Positions 6,326 through 15,153 of a stretch of DNA of 20,544 nt are shown here, piece after piece. The DNA is taken from positions 1-20,544 of IMG/VR virus record IMGVR_UViG_3300022707_002948; one strand, 5' to 3'. The position numbers and the translations under genes were made by a program. The notes beneath the pieces are model-generated. The model was not told where the DNA came from. It worked only from the letters and a program-made list of their open reading frames with translations, and ran no database searches. The DNA is from a virus. Numbering within the stretch: position 1 is the stretch's first letter; each line of letters starts with the position of its first letter.

Positions 6326-6337
6326 GGGACGTTTTAG

Positions 6338-6505
6338 AGGGTTTTGATTTGTGTGTTGTGGGAATCCAATGCGCTTGAAGCTTGATGGCTATCTAAGTGT
6401 AAACACATTCAAGCGTGGATTTCGTCAGGGTAGCATGATGGTTGGGGCACCAACTGGGCGGTGAAATTAGTTCGAATCGATTCACAGCACACAATTCAAA
6501 ACCCT
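6338..6505 (+). ncRNA. tRNA-like structured RNA A, 23-bp terminal stem
   Basis: A 23-bp helix pairs 6338-6360 with 6483-6505 (one T-T mismatch, one G-U). Inside, next to the 3' strand, is a T-arm-like hairpin: AATTaG / CGATT around the loop TTCGAAT (6465-6482), which would stack on the long stem just as a T-arm stacks on an acceptor stem. The rest holds a long hairpin (AATCC 6363-6367 with GGATT 6417-6421; CGCTTGAA 6372-6379 with TTCAAGCG 6408-6415) and GTTGG-GGCA-CCAAC (6441-6454). There is no standard anticodon arm. Related in sequence to element B at 7810. The strand is taken as that of the neighbouring genes. Confidence 0.6.
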
Positions 6506-6681
6506 TATTACGCAAGGAGGCGGAAAGAGTATACCCCCGTAGTTGCCGACTAAACTGAGTCGTAAAAATAAGGTTCCCTAACTGACGCGGTAATGTTGGG
6601 GTGGTGAGAGTAGGCTGTACTGCGATAGCACTAGACTAAGAAACTCTACTCAATCTAGTCGCCTGACCTCCGTTAAGGGTT
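6500..6681 (+). ncRNA. Structured RNA D, stems AACCCTTA/TAAGGGTT and GGAGG/CCTCC
   Basis: Outer pairing AACCCTTA (6500-6507) with TAAGGGTT (6674-6681), then GGAGG (6516-6520) with CCTCC (6667-6671). Internal hairpins include CGACT-AAACTG-AGTCG and GACTA...TAGTC. The 5' strand shares AACCCT with the 3' strand of element A, so the two outer stems cannot both form fully. No T-arm is seen. Confidence 0.4.
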
Positions 6682-6690
6682 ATTTTAGTC

Positions 6691-6873
6691 TAATTAGATA
6701 GTGGTGTTAGTGCTGGAATTGGTATACAGCAGTGTGGTCTAAGCCAATATGAAAGATCGTGTGAATAACTAATAGCACGCTCCTAGCTCACGGCGAAAAC
6801 TACTGAGGTAATAGCAGCTAGACGCAATTTACTTATGCAGGTTCGATCCCTGCCTAGCACCACTTTCTAATTA
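6691..6873 (+). ncRNA. tRNA-Leu-like RNA with about 107-nt insert and extended stem
   Basis: The ends form a tRNA frame: acceptor GTGTTAG (6704-6710) with CTAGCAC (6854-6860), then TG, a Leu-type D-arm CTGGAATTGGTATACAG (6713-6729), and at the 3' end a perfect T-arm GCAGG-TTCGATC-CCTGC (6837-6853). The acceptor helix continues outward to 20 bp (6691-6710 with 6854-6873, one T-T mismatch). Between D-arm and T-arm lie 107 nt, several times the normal anticodon arm plus variable loop. They form hairpins such as GTGTG...CACGC (6760-6780) and CTAGCT...AGCTAG. The 3' end is not CCA. Part of the insert (TAAGCCAATAT ... AGATCGTGT) recurs at 8322-8363. Confidence 0.6.
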
Positions 6874-6881
6874 TATTTAAT

Positions 6882-6961
6882 GATGCTAGTAGCTAAGAAT
6901 TTGCTTAGAGCGCTTGCCAGAGTACAGGGGGTCGCGGGTTCAAGTCCCGCCTAGCATCACC
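6882..6961 (+). tRNA. tRNA-like gene with irregular D- and anticodon arms
   Basis: An 8-bp acceptor GATGCTAG/CTAGCATC (6882-6889, 6951-6958) and a perfect T-arm GCGGG-TTCAAGT-CCCGC (6934-6950) with a 5-nt variable region GGGTC. The D-arm region folds as CTAAG-AATTTG-CTTAG without the invariant GG. The anticodon arm is CTTGC/ACAGG with a C-A mismatch and only a 6-nt loop (CAGAGT, no clear U33), so the anticodon cannot be read with confidence. With a CC bulge the stem can extend outward through TTAA. Either a degenerate tRNA or one of the tRNA-like RNAs of this region. Confidence 0.5.
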
Positions 6962-6987
6962 TTAATTATATTAACGGGTAAATAGTA

Positions 6988-7188
6988 ATGCGATTAAGAA
7001 CAGCCCTTAAGCACAGCAGGGTATTTTATTATAAAAAACGTAAATATCGCACCATTATATATCCAAAAGAAAAATTCTGGACAAGAAATTCTTTTGGTGT
7101 ATATAGCTGTATTTTTCCACAAGGTACCGAATGGATTGAATTTAGCAGTGAAATAATAGTAAAGCCGGTAATTAAAGCACAAGGATAA
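6988..7188 (+). CDS. Unknown basic protein, 66 aa
   Basis: A 66-aa ORF between two blocks of structured RNA, from ATG 6988. It is rich in Lys, Arg and aromatic residues (RVFYYKKRKYRTIIYPKEK, WTRNSFGVYSCIFP) and reads as short beta strands. The ribosome site is weak (GGGT). No domain recognised. Its position could mean it acts on the RNAs, but nothing in the sequence proves this. Confidence 0.5.
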   Translation: MRLRTALKHSRVFYYKKRKYRTIIYPKEKFWTRNSFGVYSCIFPQGTEWIEFSSEIIVKPVIKAQG

Positions 7189-7231
7189 TAGTAATGATTA
7201 AACTAACAAAAAGAAATGAAGTTTTATCCAG

Positions 7232-7256
7232 TTTATGAACAACAGTTTTTCATAAA
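7232..7256. other. Hairpin TTTATGAA/TTCATAAA
   Basis: Perfect 8-bp inverted repeat with a 9-nt loop, 15 bases before the ribosome site of the next gene. It lacks a following T-run, so it is more likely a regulatory or operator site than a terminator. Confidence 0.35.
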
Positions 7257-7279
7257 TAAACAACTAAAGAGGAAATATT

Positions 7280-7561
7280 ATGGATTTTTTGGTAAATCTT
7301 ATTAGCGTTGAGGGCTATTCGTGTGGAAGTGGTCACAGCTTCTTAAGTGCTAACTGCACACATGTGGGTAATAGTTATTGGCTATATGAGGGTGCATTGT
7401 ACGCCTTAGATGATGGTATTAATTATACCTTCATATCAGAACAAGTAATACCCGGATATGGAGATCTAACAAGTACAGGATTGAAAAAACTGGTTGTCGA
7501 TTATTACGATATAGATAAAGCTGAATTCATACCAGAATCAGGAAATAAGAAACCCGCTTGA
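7280..7561 (+). CDS. Unknown protein, 93 aa
   Basis: A 93-aa ORF with a good ribosome site (AAAGAGG) seven bases before ATG 7280. It begins MDFLVNLISVEGYSCGSGHS and contains two Cys in the first 26 residues, a Ser/Gly-rich stretch and aromatic strands (YWLYEGALYALDDGINYTF). No signal peptide or membrane segment. The 3' end forms the 5' arm of a terminator-like hairpin. Family unknown. Confidence 0.6.
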   Translation: MDFLVNLISVEGYSCGSGHSFLSANCTHVGNSYWLYEGALYALDDGINYTFISEQVIPGYGDLTSTGLKKLVVDYYDIDKAEFIPESGNKKPA

Positions 7562-7583
7562 CTATGGGTGATCAAACGGGTTT
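7550..7583 (+). terminator. Terminator-like hairpin AAACCCG/CGGGTTT
   Basis: AAACCCG (7550-7556) pairs with CGGGTTT (7577-7583), with TTGA/TCAA continuing inward (7558-7561, 7572-7575). It overlaps the stop of the preceding gene. The T-run is short (TTTAATA), so termination may be weak. Confidence 0.5.
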
Positions 7584-7596
7584 AATACAAGCAATA

Positions 7597-7722
7597 CCGA
7601 ACGTGTTGGAAGCACTTAGGTTAGACAGTAAAGTGAGTACGTATCCGGCCTTTCACGGCTAAATGAATTATACACATCTCACCTACTTCTAATCAAGCGC
7701 CTTAAAAAGGTCATATCCTTAC
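7597..7722 (+). ncRNA. Structured RNA F
   Basis: Ends CGAACGTG / (T)ACGTTCG pair over about 8 bp. Inside, AGTA..GTGAG pairs with CTCAC.TACT, enclosing GCC-TTTCAC-GGC, and GTG-TTGGAAG-CAC is a small 5' hairpin. No open frame of note. No T-arm. It lies directly before the armless tRNA-like element. Confidence 0.35.
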
Positions 7723-7736
7723 GTTCGTTTAAAAAT

Positions 7737-7805
7737 GGTGTTAGTAGTTCAATGGTAGAACGCCGTGCAGGAAATACAGGTTTCGAGGCCTGTCTAGCAC
7801 CACCA
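7737..7805 (+). tRNA. tRNA-like element lacking an anticodon arm
   Basis: An 8-bp acceptor GGTGTTAG (7737-7744) / CTAGCACC (7794-7801), then A and an encoded CCA (7802-7805). TA and a canonical D-arm GTTCAATGGTAGAAC (7747-7761) follow the acceptor; the T-arm is ACAGG/CCTGT with an 8-nt loop TTTCGAGG (7776-7793). Only 14 nt separate D-arm and T-arm, so there is no room for an anticodon arm. It could be matured and perhaps aminoacylated or bound by tRNA-processing enzymes, but it could not decode. The acceptor matches that of the element at 6703. Confidence 0.55.
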
Positions 7806-7809
7806 TATA

Positions 7810-7933
7810 AGAGAGTTTTAATCTGTGTGTTGTGGCTGTTGAACTGACGCCTCAGTGTTCCCATAAATGATGTGGTGTAATTCTGGTAAAGGCGGCTACC
7901 ACAATAAGCGCAGCACACAGACCAAAGCTCTCT
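7810..7933 (+). ncRNA. tRNA-like family RNA B, 25-bp terminal stem
   Basis: The 5' strand 7810-7834 pairs with 7909-7933 over 25 positions (two A-C mismatches, several G-U). The 5' strand matches element A (6336-6361) at 23 of 26 bases. Two pairs differ from A by compensatory changes (G6340-C6503 versus A7814-T7929; T6349-A6494 versus C7823-G7920). Inside are ACTGA-CGCC-TCAGT and GTGGT...ACCAC hairpins. No T-loop consensus is seen here, so it is more diverged than A. Confidence 0.6.
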
Positions 7934-7953
7934 TAGAGTTCATTTAGAAATTA

Positions 7954-8086
7954 TGTGTGGTGCGGCGCTGAAAGTAGAAAGCGCACCCTTATTAGCAGGA
8001 TTGTCGGGAAATAAGAGGCTTGGGAGCGGTTGAAAGCATACCGTTAAATACTCGACATAGCAGGATTAACGCCCTGCCACCACACA
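7954..8086 (+). ncRNA. tRNA-like cloverleaf RNA C
   Basis: TGTGTGGTG (7954-7962) pairs perfectly with CACCACACA (8078-8086). Then, in cloverleaf order: a D-like arm GCGC...GCGC (7965-7984), an anticodon-like arm CTTATT...AATAAG (7988-8015) with a 16-nt loop, a variable-like hairpin CGGT...ACCG (8027-8043), and a T-like arm GCAGG-ATTAACGC-CCTGC (8060-8077) that abuts the terminal stem. The T-loop is not canonical. At about 133 nt it is much larger than a tRNA. It is flanked by a 12-bp direct repeat (AGAGTTCATTTA at 7935 and 8094). Confidence 0.55.
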
Positions 8087-8270
8087 CCCATTAAGAGTTC
8101 ATTTAAAGCAGTAGTTGATACTCTAAAACGCAACTAAGTGAAACCATTAGATTAGTAGGCAAATAGTGAAGCCAAGTCTCAGACAGACTCAAAACAGACT
8201 AAATCGAGGGGCATAATTACTAAGAATCCCCAGCCCGACCCCAGCCATACTACAGTGTGCCGGTCGCAAA
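8087..8270 (+). other. Noncoding stretch with small hairpins
   Basis: No convincing ORF. Visible structures: AGAGT...ACTCT (8094-8124) and GGGG...CCCC (8208-8231). It also contains the second copy of the 12-mer AGAGTTCATTTA. Probably part of the RNA region, but no full element could be delimited. Confidence 0.3.
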
Positions 8271-8392
8271 CAGGTGAACGTGATAAATAGAGTAGGCCAA
8301 ATTGGTCATAAATCTCCTAAGTAAGCCAATATCTATTGTAGGCTATAAATTAATAGATCGTGTCACTGCTGACCCAGTATAAAAGGTGCCTG
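8271..8392 (+). ncRNA. Structured RNA E sharing a motif with the 6691 element
   Basis: CAGG/CCTG (8271, 8389) and GTGATA/TGTCAC (8280-8285, 8361-8366) enclose GGCCA-AAT-TGGTC and a 7-bp hairpin ATCTATT...AATAGAT. The sequences flanking that hairpin, TAAGCCAATAT (8322-8332) and AGATCGTGT (8355-8363), recur at 6740-6750 and 6754-6762 with the hairpin shortened, which suggests a common module. Confidence 0.4.
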
Positions 8393-8433
8393 TAATACTC
8401 GATGTAATGTAGCGTACGTAAGGATGTGTATGT

Positions 8434-8484
8434 GGTGGTTAAGCTGGTAATGATTACCTAGCATATCACCCAACGGGGTAGTTG
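8434..8484 (+). ncRNA. Two adjacent hairpins before the 8552 gene
   Basis: GGTG...GCT-GGTAA-TGA-TTACC-T-AGC...CACC (8434-8470) is followed immediately by CAAC-GGGGTA-GTTG (8471-8484). They may be the 3' end of the structured-RNA region or a leader element for the next gene. Confidence 0.35.
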
Positions 8485-8551
8485 CACCCTAAATAAACGT
8501 AATTAAAGGAACTGATCTGAGCCTATGCGTATTAACTAAAAGAGATTAAAT

Positions 8552-13314: not shown

Positions 13315-13794
13315 ATCAACTTATCGAAAACAAACAAAAGAATCAAAGATTTTTCCCACCATATAACAGAAACGCCTACCTCTATGGCCCTATTAATAGT
13401 GTTTGTAGGGTTATTTATACGGGTAGACATGAGTTATATTCCATTATCGATAGTGGCATGGTATGTCCTATTTATCCCTTTATCCAGTATTGTAAAAAAT
13501 AAGGAAATAAGCGCCTTAGACGCGTACGGTATTTTATTTTCCCTTGTTTACGCAATCCCGTTTCATTTTTTAGTTTTTTTACAAGACGGTTTTACATTTC
13601 TGGGTTATAGCCTAGATTTTACATTTCTGGGTTACAAGGTAGATTTTACATTTACAGGTTTTAGCTTAGAATTTACAGGTCTAATGGGTTATTATCCGAT
13701 TCTAGGTAATGTCCTGGCGTTTTTAGGATTATCATTATCCGTCTGGATAAGAACAAAATACCCCAAAAGATTGATTGAGATATTTTCATCGTGA
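13315..13794 (+). CDS. Polytopic membrane protein, likely non-AUG start
   Basis: The first ATG is at 13384, but the frame is open back to 13303 and reads an amphipathic head (NLSKTNKRIKDFSHHITETP) that should precede the first membrane segment. There is no ATG, GTG or TTG there; the ATC at 13315 has AGAGGA eight bases upstream and ATT at 13306 is another option, so I extend the gene to 13315 by inference. Membrane segments: MALLIVFVGLFI, YIPLSIVAWYVLFIPL, YGILFSLVYAIPFHFLVFL, PILGNVLAFLGLSLSVWI. Between the last two is a tandem 9-residue repeat (FTFLGYSLD, FTFLGYKVD, FTFTGFSLE). The head and first segments faintly recall low-affinity iron permease/DUF1003-like proteins; a holin-like role is also possible. 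Confidence 0.55.
   Translation: MNLSKTNKRIKDFSHHITETPTSMALLIVFVGLFIRVDMSYIPLSIVAWYVLFIPLSSIVKNKEISALDAYGILFSLVYAIPFHFLVFLQDGFTFLGYSLDFTFLGYKVDFTFTGFSLEFTGLMGYYPILGNVLAFLGLSLSVWIRTKYPKRLIEIFSS
13591..13671 (+). repeat. 27-bp tandem repeat inside membrane protein gene
   Basis: Three units at 13591-13617, 13618-13644 and 13645-13671, each starting TTTACATTT, plus a partial fourth (TTTACAGG...). In frame, they add three copies of a 9-residue F-T-F-x-G-(Y/F)-x-(L/V)-(D/E) unit. Confidence 0.9.
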
Positions 13795-14003
13795 GGAAAC
13801 TAGATGGTATAATGTCTGTAAACGGTTACTACAGGATGCCCAGGGAAGAAGCTGAAAAGATAATAAGGAAGGTAACTTCTAGCCATGTAGGCGAACCAAT
13901 GGAGGAGAGCCGGTTTAGGAGCTCAGTGGATCAATTATTAAACGATGTTAACGGTGAAAAAAATGCCAGCACATACGAGATCAAAGATCAAGAAAAACAT
14001 TAA
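13791..14003 (+). CDS. Unknown protein, up to 70 aa
   Basis: A frame with GTG at 13791, overlapping the previous stop (GTGA); ATG 13812 (MSVNGYYRMPREEAEKII...) is the alternative start. Charged and helical, with a polar Lys/Glu-rich end. Its 3' part overlaps the basic protein gene at 13963 in another frame. No domain recognised. Confidence 0.5.
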   Translation: MRKLDGIMSVNGYYRMPREEAEKIIRKVTSSHVGEPMEESRFRSSVDQLLNDVNGEKNASTYEIKDQEKH

Positions 14004-14091
14004 GAAAGAGATTAAGGCGGGAAAGAAGCCCAAAGTTGCTATAGCGATATCATTAACTAAAGCAAGTAAGATTAAGAAGAAGAGAAAATAG
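13963..14091 (+). CDS. Small basic DUF6496-like protein, 42 aa
   Basis: A 42-aa very basic protein: MPAHTRSKIKKNIKKEIKAG, then KKPKVAIAISLTKASKIKKK. The pattern 'basic helix - G(K)xPK(Q/V)AIAI(A/S)L - basic tail' is shared with small phage/bacterial proteins related to DUF6496. A strong GGTGAAAAAA ribosome region lies before ATG 13963. It could bind nucleic acid. It overlaps the preceding gene by 41 bases in a different frame. Confidence 0.55.
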   Translation: MPAHTRSKIKKNIKKEIKAGKKPKVAIAISLTKASKIKKKRK

Positions 14092-14092
14092 C

Positions 14093-14281
14093 ATGGAAAT
14101 AATATATGGCGCATTAATTGCCTACTTTATATTATATATAGTTTTTAGTTGTATTTATGTAAAAGTAATGTTAGGCAGTAAGAGCGTGGAAAACAGATTA
14201 AATATGCCTTTAAGCGAATTACACAAAGAAGCTTGTAGGCTATGCGATATCAAGCGAATAGTGGCGACAAAGAGAAAGTAA
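14093..14281 (+). CDS. Single-TM protein, 62 aa
   Basis: A 62-aa protein with an N-terminal membrane segment (IIYGALIAYFILYIVFSCIY) and a basic cytoplasmic-type tail (EACRLCDIKRIVATKRK) with two Cys. Start ATG 14093, one base after the previous stop. Unknown role. Confidence 0.55.
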   Translation: MEIIYGALIAYFILYIVFSCIYVKVMLGSKSVENRLNMPLSELHKEACRLCDIKRIVATKRK

Positions 14282-15076: not shown

Positions 15077-15153
15077 GGTTGCAGTAGCTTAACTTTGACA
15101 AAGCGCCCTCGTGAAGAGGGAGGATGTGGGTTCGATACCTGCCTGTAACCCCA
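15077..15153 (+). tRNA. tRNA-His-like gene with shortened anticodon loop
   Basis: Acceptor GTTGCAG (15078-15084)/CTGTAAC (15143-15149) with an additional G15077-C15150 pair and an encoded CCA (15151-15153). G-1:C73 is the hallmark of tRNA-His. The D-arm GCTT/AAGC lacks the usual GG; the T-arm is GTGGG-TTCGATA-CCTGC. The anticodon stem CCCTC/GAGGG is perfect but encloses only GTGAA, which is exactly the tRNA-His loop (anticodon GTG) minus the two bases at 32-33. An alternative with one mismatch gives anticodon GAA. It may be a degenerate tRNA. Confidence 0.55.

Follow-up and report, generated by a model that had tools for sequence, protein, structure and literature searches.

A family of non-decoding, class II tRNA-derived structured RNAs in phages

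The IMG/VR contig IMGVR_UViG_3300022707_002948, a phage sequence of 20,544 bases that was analyzed over its whole length (hereafter the window), carries at positions 6684–6880 of the + strand an RNA element, E3, which belongs to a new structured-RNA family of phages, here called family I. The family is derived from class II tRNA and is non-decoding; the tRNA mimic as a kind of RNA is already known. E3 retains the shell of a class II (Leu-like) tRNA, with the D-arm, the T-arm and the elbow nucleotides; where the anticodon loop would be, it has a domain of about 66 nt that is paired with the loop of the variable arm to form a double pseudoknot. Family I comprises 18 members including the window, every one of which lies in a phage contig. 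E3 was accepted as real based on covariation across the 18 homologs rather than on fold stability. A set of tRNA mimics outside the described families had been suggested by the original prediction, which was made from the letters of the window, and this holds for 6684–6880, where no Rfam family is matched and the stems are kept in the 18 homologs. The tRNA arrays of phages are commonly taken to be a codon supply; family I is a strongly constrained, tRNA-shaped, non-decoding RNA of such arrays that is absent from Rfam 15, unannotated in isolate records and conserved among phages of both cyanobacteria and proteobacteria. The family also adds a new fold, with a conserved core, to those of natural RNAs.

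Fold, covariation and members of family I

Seven helices make up the fold of family I, namely the terminal helix P1, the D-stem, helix C, hairpin P3, helix A, helix B and the T-stem. In E3, all of them on the + strand, the arms of the terminal helix (6684–6710 and 6854–6880) enclose a D-arm at 6713–6729 (stem 6713–6715/6727–6729, loop GAATTGGTATA), which is followed by the 5-bp helix C at the position of the anticodon stem (6730–6805, with 6730–6734 paired to 6801–6805). The "loop" of helix C contains AAGCCAAYA, hairpin P3 (6755–6782; 6755–6761/6776–6782), the 5' strand of helix A and CAYGG. Helix B occupies the variable-arm position (6806–6834; 6806–6811/6829–6834), and the T-arm at 6837–6853 reads GCAGG-TTCGATC-CCTGC. 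Helix A (6783–6821), a pseudoknot or kissing helix that lies outside the search model, pairs CTAGCT at 6783–6788 with AGCTAG at 6816–6821 and thereby joins the 3' part of the "anticodon loop" to the "variable loop", crossing both C and B. E3 thus possesses all features of family I, including helix A and the motifs AGCCAAYA, CAYGG and ACGYAAY.

Every helix but A was used in fitting the 18-member alignment. Here, 39 of the 43 pairs show changes in both partners and 94.9% of the cells are paired, values that none of 500 shuffles reached in any measure and that compare with 39–48% paired cells and at most 23 double-changed pairs in slid controls. Helix A, having been left unfitted, provides an independent test of the fold; it is 96% paired in the 18 members, with double changes in four of its six pairs, and its strings vary strongly (CTAGCT/AGCTAG, TGCGCT/AGCGCA, CTGGCT/AGCCAA, CGCACC/AGTGCG and TAGGCT/AGCCTA). 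A MAFFT alignment that was not fitted to the structure gave a similar picture, with 33 of 43 pairs double-changed and 92.5% of the cells paired (slid controls, 41–49%). The failure of homologs to preserve the stems had been named in advance as a ground for abandoning the prediction, and the stems proved to be kept through compensatory change in the 18 homologs. Since G–U combinations account for 9.2% of the paired cells, and one pair is G–U in 15 of the 18 members, the structure is likely to be formed at the level of RNA rather than DNA.

The members were collected in several steps. When the noncoding block was compared by blastn with 50,697 phage records, a single match was obtained, of window positions 6732–6850 to Synechococcus phage S-CRM01, in which the copy sits between tRNA-Ala and tRNA-Val in a gap without annotation. 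The copies of Pseudomonas phage GP100 and Variovorax phage V45v66 were reached by BLAST from S-CRM01, and the element is annotated in none of these three isolates, the V45v66 record having no annotation at all. Beyond them, 14 more phage records, including one contig of 518 kb, were reached by DNA patterns and a covariance model; four IMG/VR pattern scans, several of which used strings from conserved unpaired bases, together with a model of 11 sequences led to 17 members, and a model search of whole records added the 18th. The members outside the 11-sequence model are those of loci L088, L112, L113, L096, L105, L109 and L142. Members score 80–167 bits, compared with a maximum of about 42 bits for ordinary tRNAs. 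The core of E3 (6701–6863, + strand) scores 157.5 bits with model R1, and a profile built with the window left out still finds it at 100.9 bits (5.7e-31), with the window copy being 51–67% identical to the other members. The two matches of a specific pattern in bacterial genomes are not family I members, and none of 35 loci of window-phage relatives collected through the terminase holds the family. In all 12 loci where ARAGORN detects any tRNA, the element shares its strand with the tRNAs, the arrays of which contain up to 38 genes.

The terminal helix of the window copy consists of 11 bp, one mismatch and 8 bp, followed by weaker pairing, and in most members it runs to about 20–22 bp. Within positions 11–20, 8–10 of the 10 are paired in 10 of 17 members, compared with 4.3 for the null and 2.5 for ordinary tRNAs of the same locus, and positions 21–30 are at the null level. 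Base 73 and positions 74–76 vary freely across the family, and CCA is absent. The variable bases and the long helix indicate that charging and decoding are not the conserved feature. E3 lacks what RF00005 requires, namely a 7-nt anticodon loop with U33 and a 7-bp acceptor with a single-stranded N73-CCA end, and the position of U33 is a conserved G in family I; E3 is thus ruled out as an ordinary tRNA and has to have a different job. Two candidate identities were rejected, an HisRS-type G-1:C73 identity because the pair (column 3-186) is unconserved, and CAU anticodon mimicry in CUCAUGG because the window, L011 and V45v66 have CACGG. Transfer-messenger RNA (tmRNA) resembles family I in combining a tRNA-like end with pseudoknots; family I, in contrast, has a D-stem and possesses neither a tag reading frame nor CCA.

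Other elements of the two noncoding blocks

E3 lies in the first of two noncoding blocks that are surrounded by very small + strand genes, in a contig whose genes include those for RecT, NinG/Rap, the terminase large subunit and the portal. At gathering cut-offs, Rfam 15 gives zero matches anywhere in the window; the sole ARAGORN call is a tRNA-Phe at 15078, and its tmRNA scan is negative. When the block is searched alone, RF00005 (gathering score, 29 bits) matches 7738–7801 with 36.3 bits and 6883–6958 with 35.4 bits, and nothing else is credible. E3 itself matches no family, RF00005 included, at gathering cut-offs or up to an E value of 10. GOLLD and ROOL are likewise large structured RNAs that occur in some phages, at times near tRNAs, and the suggestion that the block holds parts of them is not supported, as the block matches neither at any useful threshold in a search up to an E value of 10.

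The two RF00005 matches correspond to E6 (7736–7803) and E4 (6882–6960), which exceed the cut-off and are called by ARAGORN in neither case. These and the elements described below are all on the + strand. E4 has a 9-bp terminal stem (TGATGCTAG/CTAGCATCA), a T-arm and a weak anticodon region, and E6 has a 9-bp terminal stem (TGGTGTTAG/CTAGCACCA), a D-arm and a T-arm and is devoid of an anticodon arm. TGRTGYTAG/CTAGCAYCA is common to E3, E4 and E6. Two long-helix modules, E1 (6337–6506; arms 6337–6362 and 6481–6506 around 118 nt) and E7 (7808–7935; arms 7808–7841 and 7902–7935), have paralogous arms, 88% identical on the 5' side and 76% on the 3' side, around differing bodies. From E1 to E7, two pairs of the arms are wholly replaced, G–C by A–T and T–A by C–G. 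The predicted folds of E1 (6338–6516, z −5.7) and E7 (7808–7940, z −7.3) are far more stable than those of dinucleotide shuffles, and the single-sequence values of the remaining elements are −3.1 for E5 (7597–7730, a possible structured element), −2.5 for E4, −2.2 for E6, −2.1 for E8 (7954–8087, a possible long-stem element with TGTGTGGTG/CACCACACA and a degenerate T-arm) and −1.9 for E3. In a scan with 150-nt windows, the mean z was −0.66 inside the blocks and −0.04 outside, a difference so small that global stability alone is no marker of the block.

Several of the features that had been predicted for these blocks were recovered. Long terminal helices are seen in E1, E3 and E7, compared with none in one composition-shuffled copy of the window, and the recurrence of acceptor sequences is borne out by the arms of E1 and E7 and by CTAGCAYC, which occurs at three places. 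The interior without a normal anticodon arm is found in E3, E4 and E6. The expected T-arm beside the terminal helix is clear in E3, E4 and E6 and degenerate in E8, and does not form in the predicted fold of E1. At least eight structured elements lying nearly end to end were not confirmed: the folds of E2 (6500–6700, z −0.34) and of 8088–8500 (z −0.12) are no better than those of shuffled DNA, and E5 and E8 are suggestive as structured elements. A uniform array of eight is too strong a description. Homologs of E1, E2, E5, E7, E8 and 8088–8500 were found neither among phages nor among window-phage relatives or tRNA-array loci. The other elements of the window, both long-helix and tRNA-like, probably arise in the same manner as E3 and have different bodies.

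Long-helix modules in other phage arrays

Modules in which a long helix encloses a tRNA-derived body also occur in the tRNA arrays of other phages. Near-perfect inverted repeats number 6.9 per 10 kb in family I loci versus 2.3 in 94 control phage loci, and the latter value weakens such counts as proof of arrays; by another criterion, 59 long-helix modules were counted in family I loci versus one in shuffles. Helix arms of the type ATTCTGTTTTCACATGCA recur in 25 tRNA-array loci around unrelated bodies, and AGTGTGTTTCAATATGG arms are repeated many times in the tRNA arrays of L096, L105 and L109 around differing RNA bodies. The helix arms of these wider modules change with compensation. Some of their bodies carry T-arms on either side or contain two to three T-arms.

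A constant helix, ATTCTGTTTTCACATGCAC../..GTGCAGYTGAAAACAGAAT (12 bp, a 2x2 loop and 7–8 bp), encloses unrelated tRNA-derived bodies at L123:951–1055 and in 25 loci. L123:951–1055 itself is an inside-out tRNA, which ARAGORN calls as a tRNA only after rotation and insertion of a generic anticodon loop, and the model of the bacterial Y RNA YrlA (RF02553) aligns with L123:953–1056 end to end at 27.1 bits. Unlike family I, modules of this type have the basal stem at the anticodon position and a loop-closed acceptor. Full-length, sub-threshold YrlA matches are also present in the family I phages S-CRM01 (132222–132336, 35.9 bits) and G007 (140722–140822, 44.8 bits). A gene for a TROVE (Ro60) protein lies at 13520–14257 of G013, the 204-kb record of L112 and a family I phage.

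Possible origin and action, and further tRNA-like RNAs

A possible origin was proposed in which E3, an RNA encoded by the phage and not used in decoding, descends from a class II (Leu-type) tRNA and is cut from tRNA transcripts, a proposal for which belief and doubt are evenly balanced. E3 would be co-transcribed with the neighbouring phage tRNAs and then released through RNase III-type cleavage inside the two-turn terminal helix, instead of by RNase P and CCA addition. RNase III cuts two helical turns of duplex, and release by this enzyme is therefore the simplest guess for a terminal helix of two turns. The free RNA might use its tRNA elbow to dock on machinery that hardly differs among bacteria, candidates being the ribosome and enzymes that process, modify or degrade RNA, for example TruB/DusA or PNPase, to which Y RNAs are bound by their tRNA-like domain; the knotted domain held at the anticodon place could conceivably act as the effector part. 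That cyanobacterial and proteobacterial phages share the core speaks for a bacteria-wide target more than for a fast-changing defence nuclease, and the G–U pairs together with the strand bias suggest that the function is exerted by the RNA.

Three points weigh against this proposal. S-CRM01, V45v66, L046, L113 and L096 have no perfect 20-bp helix, and with short or broken helices in five or more members, RNase III cannot account for release throughout the family. The conserved loops are complementary to Escherichia coli rRNA only at chance level, the best stretch being 10 nt (window only, 23S around position 1060) and that of the consensus 7–8 nt, both as chance expects, and ribosome binding is not directly supported. 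The 35 unpaired columns that are identical in at least 16 rows of the 17-member alignment, among them the GG of the D-loop and most of the TTCGA of the T-loop, owe part of their invariance to members that were found by pattern; members found by BLAST or model keep most of it, and the covariation is unaffected.

Among the alternatives, an anti-defence decoy is unlikely, if the least so. Such a tRNA mimic would sequester or block tRNA-targeting nucleases of the host (PrrC, RloC or PARIS-type) and would itself escape being cut at the anticodon. It would explain the retained elbow, the loss of the anticodon and the location in phage tRNA arrays, and phage-encoded tRNAs are discussed as acting against PARIS defence (PMC11455837). 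However, anticodon nucleases read the anticodon loop, which is exactly the replaced part, and deep conservation of the core across cyanobacterial and proteobacterial phages is unlike an arms race. Slightly less likely still is a Y-RNA-like scaffold, in which the terminal helix would serve as the protein-binding handle for Ro60/Rsr or a substitute and the body would recruit an effector, for instance PNPase, redirecting RNA decay during infection. YrlA, a known tRNA mimic, has the same general plan, with a paired-end basal helix and D-, T- and acceptor-like arms, and TruB and DusA modify its tRNA-like domain, which also binds PNPase (PMC8394870). The inside-out modules in phages of the same arrays and the TROVE/Ro60 protein of G013 fit this explanation. 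On the other hand, TROVE is encoded in only one of 29 records, all YrlA scores are under the gathering score of 69 (best in relatives, 44.8 bits; no match in the window), and the YrlA model also matches in 9 of 14 control genomes. In addition, the helix of family I extends the acceptor, in contrast to the basal helix of YrlA at the anticodon place and its loop-closed acceptor. By analogy, YrlA may be regarded as the nearest functional counterpart of family I, although family I departs from it in both topology and score.

The constant arms around unrelated bodies, within and between phages (those of ATTCTGTTTTCACATGCA in 25 loci and of AGTGTGTTTCAATATGG in L096, L105 and L109), would also suit a mobile cassette, whose long arms would mark the borders of recombination and whose bodies would be passengers swapped between phages. 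This is improbable, considering that arm changes are compensated, that G–U pairs occur, that the strand of the tRNAs is shared and that the bodies are tRNA-derived, not random. An intron-containing or decaying tRNA-Leu, with the extra sequence as an intron or a pseudogene insertion, is the least credible by far. Family I does resemble class II tRNA-Leu in the D-arm sequence, the 3-bp D-stem, the long variable-arm position, the T-arm and the elbow bases, and cyanobacterial tRNA-Leu can carry a group I intron. In contrast to tRNA-Leu, family I has no anticodon, U33 (replaced by the conserved G) or discriminator/CCA end, and its acceptor exceeds 7 bp in most members; through helix A, the inserted sequence is paired to the variable arm, the group I and group II models give no match, and the 39 compensatory pairs rule out decay.

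The origin of E3 from tRNA transcripts may be extended, rather tentatively, to a wider class. Large phages would keep arrays of modules in which a constant two-turn helix is combined with interchangeable tRNA-derived bodies (right-way-round, inside-out, knotted, or with two or three T-arms); the modules would be cut from tRNA transcripts and manipulate the host machines that handle tRNA. If this is true, a wider non-decoding class would include, as special cases, phage Y RNAs and the species 1 and 2 RNAs of phage T4. The T4 RNAs (rnaC and rnaD) are likewise stable phage RNAs within a tRNA cluster, and in rnaC the T-arm adjoins the terminal stem; in contrast to family I, no similar knotted core or 20-bp terminal helix was seen in them, and model R1 matches only the tRNAs of T4. 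The long-open role of non-decoding stable RNAs in phage tRNA clusters is now testable in S-CRM01 and GP100.

Further tRNA-like RNAs were observed beside these modules. One odd class, at L012:3052–3131, L020:5810–5888, L021:9795–9906 and L018:6070–6156, has the order acceptor, TAYCGTC in place of the D-arm, an anticodon-like hairpin, GACGTAAY-N-ATG and T-arm, and pairing of its CGTC with GACG is possible. At L053:8061–8186, in a window-phage relative, and at L008:1406–1532, in Achromobacter phage Axy24, there are Leu-like tRNAs whose anticodon regions are strongly enlarged. A second long-helix module, which has a T-arm-like hairpin next to its helix, is present in a contig with a family I member (L039:5851–5996, − strand). 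In Xanthomonas phage Elanor (L006:1538–1668), a 22-nt inverted repeat surrounds 87 nt in a stretch of about 900 nt past the terminase that has no annotated genes and lies near a tRNA and odd tRNA-like sequences. In the window itself, the tRNA-Phe at 15078–15153, which is not called by Rfam, has an 8-bp acceptor and can form a CCCTC/GAGGG stem with a loop of 5 nt; it may likewise be a tRNA-like RNA that does not decode.

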